From Oscillospiraceae bacterium (GTDB lineage Bacteria; Bacillota; Clostridia; UMGS1810): a DNA stretch of 34,377 nucleotides. A program made the translations under genes and the position numbers. Numbering within the stretch: the first letter of the stretch is position 1; the number at the start of each line of letters is the position of its first letter. The notes under the pieces are model-generated. The model did no database searches, had not been told where the DNA came from, and was given only the letters and a program-made list of their open reading frames with translations. The DNA lies in assembly GCA_015068985.1 (NCBI GenBank), contig SVJL01000007.1, positions 1 to 34,377 on the forward strand. Reading direction: 5' to 3'. This document shows, in pieces, positions 27,194 through 29,984 of this stretch.

Positions 27194-27222
27194 ATAATAT
27201 ACCAAAAGTTATTTATTGTCAA
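27194..27222 (-). promoter_or_regulatory. mscL promoter
   Basis: TTGACA (27217-27222), a 17-bp spacer and TATTAT (27194-27199). The -35 lies inside the 3' end of the upstream GTPase-NYN gene, so mscL can be transcribed separately. Confidence 0.75.
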
Positions 27223-29752
27223 TAGTTGTCGAAATAAAACGCCGCATTTCTTTTTCGACCAAGTCCAGCTCTGCTCTGAATTCATCGGCACTGACACGCA
27301 CGCCTCCGTTGCCGAAAACAATCATCTGCTCTTCCCTGTCGGAGGTGGCAACGCGAACACGATAAGTTTTGCTGAGTTCCTTCGAAGTTTTTTCGATGTA
27401 TGTGTCGGCAGTTTCGGCTTCTTTAGTGTAGACAACAGTGACATTGCCGACTCGTTCAACCTCGCCGATGTTACCTTTGACTTTGTAGGCATCAAAAACT
27501 ACGATAACGTTATTTTTCTTCATTGCCTGATAGTTGCACAAACGGTTTATGAGGATGTTTCGTGCGGCATCGGGGTTATCGTCGGAAATCTTTTTAAGTT
27601 CGTCCCAAGCATAAATTATATTGTAGCCATCTATCAAAAGATATTCGAGACCAAGATTGATTTGCTGACTTTTGTAGGGCTTTGCCGTGCGCTCAGCAGC
27701 ATAGTTTTTTGGTTTGTCGGTCTTTATTTTACCATAGGTTTGCTCAAAAATACGCATAAGCTCATCGTCGCTTGCTGTGATTGAACCACCAAGGTGACCG
27801 GAAGCTTTAGGAACATACTCTGCATGGGCAGAATCTGCAAGGGGAAGGTGCATATGGTCAAACACCTCATCCCAACTAACCACAAAACCTGCTCCGTGAG
27901 CACAGAAAACAGAGTCGGGGGTGTTGTCCTGATCGGAAAGAGGATTATAGCCAATCTGCCCGATTACCTCATCGGCATTTTTGCAAGGCTCATAGCCCGA
28001 AAAGCTGAGGCTAAGTCTGCCTGTGCCGTGAGTGTAGGCAACAACTTCTTTATGATAGCCGCTTATTGCCGAAACAGGTGCCTTCCCTTTTATTCGTGTA
28101 ATATCACCACCCGAAACAGGAGGCTCAAAGTCTGCACCCATTTGTTGAAAATCGGTGAGTGCTCTGCCCGTTGATGAGGTGGGCAGTTCTAACACGAAGC
28201 TATAGTATGGCTCAAGCAGCACGCTTTTCGCCTGCATAAGTCCTTGACGAACGGCTCTGTAGGTCGCCTGACGAAAATCGCCGCCGTCGGTGTGTTTGTT
28301 GTGGGCTCTGCCATTTACGAGAGTTATTTTTATGTCGGTTATTGGCGAACCTGTTAAAACTCCAAGGTGGTCTTTTTCGGAAAGGTGAGTCAGAATGAGT
28401 CGTTGCCAGTTGCGTGCAAGCACATCTTCACTGCATTTTGAAGATATGCTAATACCCGAACCCGGTTCTCCGGGTTCCATAAGAAGATGAACCTCCGAAT
28501 AGTGACGAAGAGGCTCATAGTGCCCCACTCCCTCAACCGAATTGGAAATTGTCTCTTTATAGAGAATACTGCCCTCTTCAAACTCCACCTCAAGACCAAA
28601 TCTGTCGGCAAGAACACGTTTTAACACTTCAAGCTGAATTTCGCCCATTATGCGAACGTTTATCTTTTCGGGAATGCCGCCAAGACGTACCTGCATTTGG
28701 GTTTCTTCCTGCTCCAGACGTCTGAACATGGGGAGAGCACGGGTGATATCCATATTATCGGGCAAACGCACCGAATAGGTAAACACCGGTTCCGAGAAAA
28801 AACGTTCTTCGCCAACATCCTCACCAATGCCGTCACCTGCTGATATTTTGGATAGGCCGGTAACTGCACATACCTCACCTGATGAAACCTCCTGAACGGA
28901 GGTGTATTTATTTCCGGAATATATGCGGATTTCATTAATCTTTTCGCTCCAGCCGTCTTTGGTTATGAGGGTTTTAACCTTCAGGGAACCGCCGGTAATT
29001 TTGAGATGAGCAAGACGAGTGCCTTTTTCGTCTTCAGTGATTTTGAAAACTCTTGCTCCAAAGGCCTCGGGATAAGTTTTTTGGAGAGTATAGTCGTTGA
29101 TGGCTGCAAGAAACTCCTTGACACCCTCGTTTTTCAGAGCAGAGCCAAAGAAACAAGGGAAAATCTTTCGGGAATTAACAGCTTTTATCAAAGATTCGGA
29201 GCAAATGGTGCTATCTTCAAGATATTCGTTCATAAGGCTGTTGTCGAGAAGTGCTGCATTTTCATAAAACTCGTCATCTAAGGCGGAAAAATCCACACAT
29301 CCCTCCGACAAGCCTGTTTTTAAATTGTCTATAACAGCTTCCTTGCCCTCGTTTGGCAAGTCCATTTTGTTAACAAAAATAAAGACGGGAATATTGTAGT
29401 GAGAAAGCAGACTCCAAAGGGTGCGGGTGTGGCTCTGAACTCCGTCAGTGCCGCTGACAACCAAAACCGCATAGTCAAGAACACAAAGAGTACGCTCGGT
29501 TTCGGCAGAAAAATCTACGTGACCTGGAGTGTCGACAAGAGTTATACGGGTGTTATCAATATTGAACACTGCCTGCTTGGAAAAAATGGTTATGCCACGG
29601 TCACGTTCAATTTCGTTGGTATCGAGAAAAGCATCGCCATGGTCCACTCTGCCAAGCTTTGATATCTGACCTGCATTATATAAAAAACTTTCGGAAAGGG
29701 TTGTCTTGCCAGAGTCTACATGAGCAAGAATACCGATGGTTATTTGCTTCAT
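27209..29752 (-). CDS. Tet(M)/EF-G-like translation GTPase fused to a YacP/Rae1-type NYN domain
   Basis: This is an 847-aa two-part protein. The first ~640 residues are a ribosomal-protection-type translational GTPase: P-loop AHVDSGKTT (10-18), RGITI (52-56), DTPGH (74-78), NKMD (128-131), then EF-G domains II-V. The domain IV tip reads NGRAHNKHTDGGDFRQAT where Tet(M) has its YSPVSTP drug-displacing loop, so tetracycline resistance is doubtful. After a linker, residues about 702-847 form a NYN/PIN-like ribonuclease domain of the YacP family (LLIDGYNIIYAW with D708 and N711; VVFDAYK with D754; ETADTYIE with D783; VATSDREEQ with D805). B. subtilis YacP (Rae1) cleaves mRNA in the ribosomal A site. 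The fusion implies a factor that enters the A site and cuts the message. Own promoter; ribosome binding site GAGGCGAT. Confidence 0.88.
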   Translation of the reverse strand: MKQITIGILAHVDSGKTTLSESFLYNAGQISKLGRVDHGDAFLDTNEIERDRGITIFSKQAVFNIDNTRITLVDTPGHVDFSAETERTLCVLDYAVLVVSGTDGVQSHTRTLWSLLSHYNIPVFIFVNKMDLPNEGKEAVIDNLKTGLSEGCVDFSALDDEFYENAALLDNSLMNEYLEDSTICSESLIKAVNSRKIFPCFFGSALKNEGVKEFLAAINDYTLQKTYPEAFGARVFKITEDEKGTRLAHLKITGGSLKVKTLITKDGWSEKINEIRIYSGNKYTSVQEVSSGEVCAVTGLSKISAGDGIGEDVGEERFFSEPVFTYSVRLPDNMDITRALPMFRRLEQEETQMQVRLGGIPEKINVRIMGEIQLEVLKRVLADRFGLEVEFEEGSILYKETISNSVEGVGHYEPLRHYSEVHLLMEPGEPGSGISISSKCSEDVLARNWQRLILTHLSEKDHLGVLTGSPITDIKITLVNGRAHNKHTDGGDFRQATYRAVRQGLMQAKSVLLEPYYSFVLELPTSSTGRALTDFQQMGADFEPPVSGGDITRIKGKAPVSAISGYHKEVVAYTHGTGRLSLSFSGYEPCKNADEVIGQIGYNPLSDQDNTPDSVFCAHGAGFVVSWDEVFDHMHLPLADSAHAEYVPKASGHLGGSITASDDELMRIFEQTYGKIKTDKPKNYAAERTAKPYKSQQINLGLEYLLIDGYNIIYAWDELKKISDDNPDAARNILINRLCNYQAMKKNNVIVVFDAYKVKGNIGEVERVGNVTVVYTKEAETADTYIEKTSKELSKTYRVRVATSDREEQMIVFGNGGVRVSADEFRAELDLVEKEMRRFISTTIDNK

Positions 29753-29780: not shown

Positions 29781-29809
29781 ATTATATCACACATAACAGA
29801 ATTTGTAAA
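29781..29809 (-). promoter_or_regulatory. Promoter of the GTPase-NYN gene
   Basis: TTTACA (29804-29809), a 17-bp spacer and a perfect TATAAT (29781-29786), about 28 bp before the start codon, so the leader is very short and there is no room for a tet(M)-style attenuator. Confidence 0.7.
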
Positions 29810-29911: not shown

Positions 29912-29956
29912 GTTTTTTACTGTATAGGAAACGAAGTTTCCTATACAGTAAAAAAC
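29912..29956. repeat. 45-bp perfect palindrome (21-bp arms)
   Basis: Arms 29912-29932 and 29936-29956 are perfect reverse complements around the loop GAA. The outer ends are T-rich and A-rich, so either strand would give a hairpin flanked by U residues. It may work as a bidirectional terminator or be a small mobile palindrome. It follows another hairpin in the same gap. Confidence 0.85.
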
Positions 29957-29958
29957 AT

Positions 29959-29984
29959 AGCCGAGAACTTTGGTGTCCTCGGCT
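29959..29984 (-). terminator. Terminator after the transporter-kinase operon
   Basis: AGCCGAG pairs with CTCGGCT. On the minus strand it is followed by ATGTTTTTT and on the plus strand by TTTTTTA, so it may work in both directions. It lies about 24 bp after the stop of the cytidylate-kinase-like gene. Confidence 0.75.

Follow-up and report, generated by a model that had tools for sequence, protein, structure and literature searches.

A Rae1-type nuclease joined to a translational GTPase, and the loss of free yacP from the Clostridia that carry it

Tet(M) and EF-G enter the ribosomal A site, and Tet proteins use a loop of domain IV to dislodge tetracycline. The locus studied here raises the question of what a relative of these proteins does when a nuclease is attached to it. 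One gene in the window (the whole 34,377-nt stretch of DNA that was analysed) encodes an EF-G/Tet(M)-type GTPase joined to an NYN nuclease of the YacP/Rae1 family, and Rae1 has been described as an endonuclease that attacks mRNA within the A site of the ribosome (PMC12320835, PMC6613710). The first-pass annotation had placed both halves in a single open reading frame at 27209-29752. These coordinates proved correct and the strand is minus: in an ORF check of the window the frame runs uninterrupted from 29752 to 27209, while the plus strand over this interval contains many stops. A GAGG precedes the ATG, and the protein's start lines up with those of TetM and TetO. The gene and its parts are as follows.

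27209..29752, minus strand: fusion gene, 847 aa, EF-G/Tet(M)-type GTPase plus YacP/Rae1 NYN nuclease (ORF, Pfam, homologues)
27977..29752, minus strand: GTPase body, residues 1-592, G domain plus EF-G domains II-V (Pfam, alignment, model)
28274..28309, minus strand: domain IV tip loop, residues 482-493, RAHNKHTDGGDF (alignments)
27833..27976, minus strand: residues 593-640, extending the body at its C-terminal side and modelled as ordered (alignment, model, body tree)
27659..27832, minus strand: tether, residues 641-698 (alignment, AlphaFold model)
27212..27658, minus strand: YacP/Rae1-like NYN nuclease, residues 699-847 (Pfam, alignment, model)

Within the 847-aa protein, Pfam recognized GTP_EFTU (residues 3-222), EF-G_D2 (232-309), EFG_III (319-392), EFG_IV (395-509), EFG_C (511-592), and NYN_YacP (705-841, 157.8 bits vs. 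a cut-off of 24.6). The GTPase half had been called complete and Tet(M)/EF-G-like, and this was upheld by the domain order and by the P-loop, DTPGH, and NKxD motifs (G1, G3, and G4), which are invariant in 112 of 112 homologues, with only the x of NKxD varying. Together with domains II-V, these motifs place the body in the EF-G/Tet superfamily. The nuclease assignment likewise held, as the NYN_YacP match lies within the C-terminal ~146 residues where it was expected, and the four acidic residues singled out earlier (D708, D754, D783, and D805) are unchanged in all 112 homologues and remain invariant when 22 free YacPs are aligned with them. The Pfam cut-off, this four-Asp acidic site, and a Rae1 fold define the half as a member of the YacP/Rae1 NYN family, and the alignments support a catalytically intact nuclease of the Rae1 type.

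Homologues came from a one-genome-per-species collection and cover at least 80 loci, the best 80 of 589 confirmed relatives. Among the matches listed, more than 100 sequences of 834-918 aa share the identical architecture, and their hosts include Ruminococcus, other Oscillospiraceae, Monoglobus, Lachnospiraceae, and further Clostridia. A frameshift joining two genes is therefore ruled out. More broadly, we found no point in favor of an assembly or annotation artefact, and the probability of one is negligible given more than 100 independent homologues of like length and the presence of fusions in three single-contig genomes (G039, G134, and G149).

The AlphaFold model of the full fusion (mean pLDDT 85.9, pTM 0.66) contains three confident, ordered parts, namely the body (1-592), its extension (593-640), and the NYN domain (703-846). 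In structure comparisons, residues 1-605 matched ribosome-bound EF-G over 602 residues (Z 41.8), with an rmsd of 10.9 Å that is owed to domain movements, and the body matched TetM (3j9y) over 610 residues (Z 32.3). Because the whole-chain VIA comparison barely tests the NYN part, this domain was folded and searched alone. The resulting model (pLDDT 91.6) superimposed on Bacillus subtilis Rae1 (5mq9) with a TM score of 0.84, an rmsd of 1.7 Å, and about 38% identity. Between the extension and the nuclease, two low-confidence, disordered stretches (642-659 and 677-698) flank a short helix (662-673) that the alignment finds in fused proteins and not in their unfused sisters. In the model, the nuclease thus hangs on a predicted tether of ~60 residues, and nothing suggests that it is docked rigidly to the body. 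As a separate observation, C590 in domain V and C617 and H635 in the extension (window 27833-27985) are conserved, also in the unfused sisters, and could possibly form a metal site or a structural pair.

The domain IV tip sets the body apart from the drug-resistance proteins in the alignment. The columns that hold YSPVSTPADF in Tet(M) hold HNKHTDGGDF in the fusion protein, so the earlier statement that HNKHTDGG stands in for the drug-loop motif was borne out, and for the same loop. Across the fusions in the 112-sequence alignment, the tip is near-invariant as G-x-A-H-x-K-H-T-E-G-G-D-F, and H484 falls in the column of EF-G's conserved tip His.

All 41 fused bodies in the body tree form one clade (SH-aLRT 99), whose sister consists of six unfused proteins with the same type of tip motif. 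This tree, a quick one, separates the fused and unfused sister clades from the Tet proteins (SH-aLRT 100). In a tree of NYN domains from a quick search, a branch with moderate support (92) has the fused ones all to one side. The simplest reading of these trees is one fusion event within an EF-G/Tet-like GTPase family that has unfused members. The alignment and tree find both the tip motif and the extension in unfused proteins of 647-654 aa, so these features probably predate the fusion. The unfused family (L186-L188 and L272-L274) carries a KHTSGGDF-type tip and occurs in two copies in one genome (G121); its members share 41-45% identity, the tip motif, and the C-terminal extension with the fusion but are without the nuclease, and scoring may class them with tetracycline-resistance proteins. 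In family f37, genomes with the unfused GTPase keep a free yacP elsewhere in the genome. Separately, NYN_YacP was also seen in a 308-aa open frame that is longer than free YacP (G189:C4:35531-36007), possibly another fusion.

A further pattern concerns what is missing where the fusion is present. Of 137 genomes surveyed in the class, almost all with a completeness of 90% or more, 51 have the fused form, 41 have a free yacP, 45 have neither, and none has both. If the two were independent, both would be expected in 15 of the 137, although this figure ignores relatedness and the counts are not independent given the shared ancestry of the genomes. The two forms were also never found together in 129 phylum-wide genomes. 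Both kinds occur, in different genomes, within four families (f20, f21, f25, and f104), one genus (g32) included. A second YacP in G134 was considered and set aside as chance, being a weak match in a frame that by eye resembles an AsnC/Lrp-type regulator.

The locus itself bears on the loss of free yacP. In 18 of 19 loci the free gene has rlmB on one side and sigH on the other, and in most it is downstream of cysS and a gene for an MrnC-like protein (RNase III). In 14 of the 29 fusion genomes where sigH was found, rlmB adjoins sigH without an intact yacP. The single-contig genome G039 retains a yacP with several in-frame stops exactly between the two genes, while shorter remnants persist at the locus in G112 and G130, and a weaker one in G091; a reversed-protein control for these remnants gave no match. 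The fusion itself sits elsewhere in the genome. These gaps and decayed remnants indicate that genomes with the fusion have lost free yacP, in some lineages recently. The fused form has replaced the free Rae1 gene in its gut-bacterial hosts, and the two almost never coexist. In the window's own genome we found no other NYN_YacP, in answer to the earlier proposal to look for a free copy, and we did not find the sigH site; as this genome is only 82.9% complete, the absence there is not proof.

Most fusions also show a change in the nuclease itself. From the TSD motif to their last residue, free YacPs have 64-71 residues, a stretch that contains a basic helix, whereas 98 of 128 fusions, the window's protein among them, are shorter and without this basic C-terminal tail. 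R166 of B. subtilis Rae1 falls in the tail, and R166P was isolated there as a suppressor and classed with loss-of-function alleles (PMC6613710). One possibility is that the GTPase body took over the job of the tail. Still, tail loss clusters on the tree, with at least five state changes, and is not universal; one large fused clade keeps the tail, and fusion therefore does not require its loss. Because the tail is a feature of the free form and not of the NYN_YacP family, its absence bars the window's protein only from being filed as a free, stand-alone Rae1.

How, then, should the fusion be read? Atkinson 2015 suggested a role in resistance to tetracycline or another A-site drug, with the nuclease adding a new resistance step (PMC4342817). 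The body is indeed a member of the Tet(M)/EF-G superfamily; among proteins of known structure, TetO and TetM are nearest to it in sequence, and tet_protect is its best NCBIfam model. However, its score under that model is 417 bits vs. a curated cut-off of 775, which two Tet genes in the same test passed with 876 and 1001 bits. The YSPVST drug-loop motif is replaced, the clade is separate from the Tet proteins, and the gene is chromosomal, widespread in its genus and family, and surrounded by housekeeping genes, among which no mobile element was seen. We therefore regard a resistance role as very unlikely, and the first-pass view that this is not a tetracycline resistance protein stands as far as the score, tip loop, and clade can tell.

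Two other readings were weighed. The body could merely mark ribosomal particles for a nuclease that acts on rRNA or tRNA in maturation or decay, making the protein an assembly or turnover factor. Such targets would suit the company of free yacP, which travels with rlmB (an rRNA methylase gene) and the MrnC-like RNase III gene, as well as the non-additive yacO and rae1 mutations in B. subtilis (PMC6613710) and the proposal, in the portion of PMC4342817 that cites Anantharaman and Aravind, that NYN domains mature rRNA and tRNA. Yet Rae1 is reported to be an A-site mRNA endonuclease (PMC12320835, PMC6613710), and the fusion has left the rlmB operon, so we consider these targets unlikely. The chain might also hold two independent functions, in which case the body would relieve stalls or serve as a backup EF-G, and the NYN domain would simply be carried along. 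The long disordered tether would permit separate action, and the same-tip bodies of f37 do exist unfused, with a free yacP encoded elsewhere in the genome. Against this, the fusion arose once and has been retained in many families, with free yacP decaying meanwhile, and the tail loss suggests dependence on the body, which makes independence fairly improbable in our view.

We think it likely that the fusion is the cell's Rae1 (YacP), equipped with a translational GTPase that carries it to the ribosome. That free yacP was displaced strengthens the reading of the protein as a ribosome-dependent mRNA cutter. Most likely, the fusion would focus the activity of Rae1 on those ribosomes in which a translational GTPase can enter the A site. 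A narrower version, in which the protein is a GTP-gated, no-go-type decay factor of Clostridia that couples A-site inspection to cutting and has displaced a diffusible Rae1, is conceivable but somewhat doubtful.

The earlier proposal that the factor binds, cuts the message, and leaves needs one qualification, in that binding and cutting probably cannot be one simultaneous A-site event. Judged by the known placements of Tet(M), EF-G, and Rae1, the domain IV tip and the nuclease would need the same space at the decoding site and should not fit there together, so sequential action is expected. In such a sequence, the GTP-loaded EF-G/Tet(M)-like body would enter ribosomes with an accessible A site, and its domain IV tip (AHxKHTxGG) would probe the decoding site. 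The tethered NYN domain would then cut the message at or beside the A site after the body withdraws or turns, or alternatively just outside the mRNA entrance with the body still bound. GTP hydrolysis, expected before the body leaves or swings aside, would reset it, and tmRNA would resolve the cut message. A truncated message should be resolvable in this way because tmRNA is present in 15 of 15 genomes tried. We infer ribosome entry, any action on stalled ribosomes, the order of events, the role of GTP (including departure by hydrolysis), and the substrates; the literature searchable here yielded no experimental test of any fused protein.

The domain fusion itself is already published, and the window's gene is a further member. 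Atkinson 2015 described Tet proteins with an added YacP-like NYN (RNase) domain in ten Clostridiales and guessed at an rRNase or resistance role (PMC4342817). Those proteins and the window's are alike, as matched by description, in joining an EF-G/Tet-type GTPase to a YacP-like NYN domain in Clostridia. That study counted them as Tet resistance proteins, whereas here they fall outside the Tet clade, have a single origin, and replace free yacP. What the present analysis appears to add is the replacement of free yacP, the pseudogene remnants, the loss of the tail, and the placement apart from the Tet clade; no later paper on the fusion was found in the searchable literature, and other papers may hold parts of these findings.

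Each better-known relative shares only part of the architecture. Rae1/YacP of B. subtilis (5mq8, 5mq9) has the NYN fold and the four catalytic-site Asp but is a free 170-aa protein with a basic tail, whereas the window's protein is tailless and joined to a GTPase. Tet(M) and Tet(O) (3j9y, 4v6v) share the domain order, fold, and similar length of the body, and differ in the domain IV loop, C-terminal extension, NCBIfam score, and clade. EF-G shares domains I-V and the tip His aligned with H484, but has ~25% identity over domains II-V and neither extension nor nuclease.

In the literature covered, the A-site model of Rae1 rests on B. subtilis. A Rae1 welded to a relative of A-site factors, with free Rae1 decayed, offers independent evolutionary support for this model, and the fusion provides a testable system for asking whether a GTPase decides when Rae1 cuts. 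Where members in gut bacteria carry a tetracycline-resistance annotation, they may instead be mRNA quality-control enzymes, and if so, resistome counts would be inflated.

Finally, we examined the surroundings of the gene. Its neighbors include luxS and genes for a DUF523-type protein, an aminotransferase, mscL, a cytidylate-kinase-like protein, and a CitMHS/ArsB-type transporter, with rpoB nearby, and the genome encodes other EF-G-type GTPases. No conserved operon for the fusion was found among the fusion loci compared. Two putative control sites lie upstream of the gene.

29781..29809, minus strand: promoter-like TTTACA-17-TATAAT, with a TG that makes it an extended -10 site, by consensus match alone
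29959..29984, minus strand: terminator-like hairpin between the fusion gene and the cytidylate-kinase-like gene (sequence)

At the other end, a promoter-like TTGACA-17-TATTAT for the downstream mscL (27194-27222) overlaps the 3' end of the fusion gene. Also upstream of the fusion, positions 29912-29956 hold a near-perfect 20-bp inverted repeat (TTTTTTACTGTATAGGAAAC / GTTTCCTATACAGTAAAAAA) with a tight loop. A second paired copy is found on contig C140 and single arms occur elsewhere in the genome, and by this pattern the repeat is a small dispersed hairpin element.
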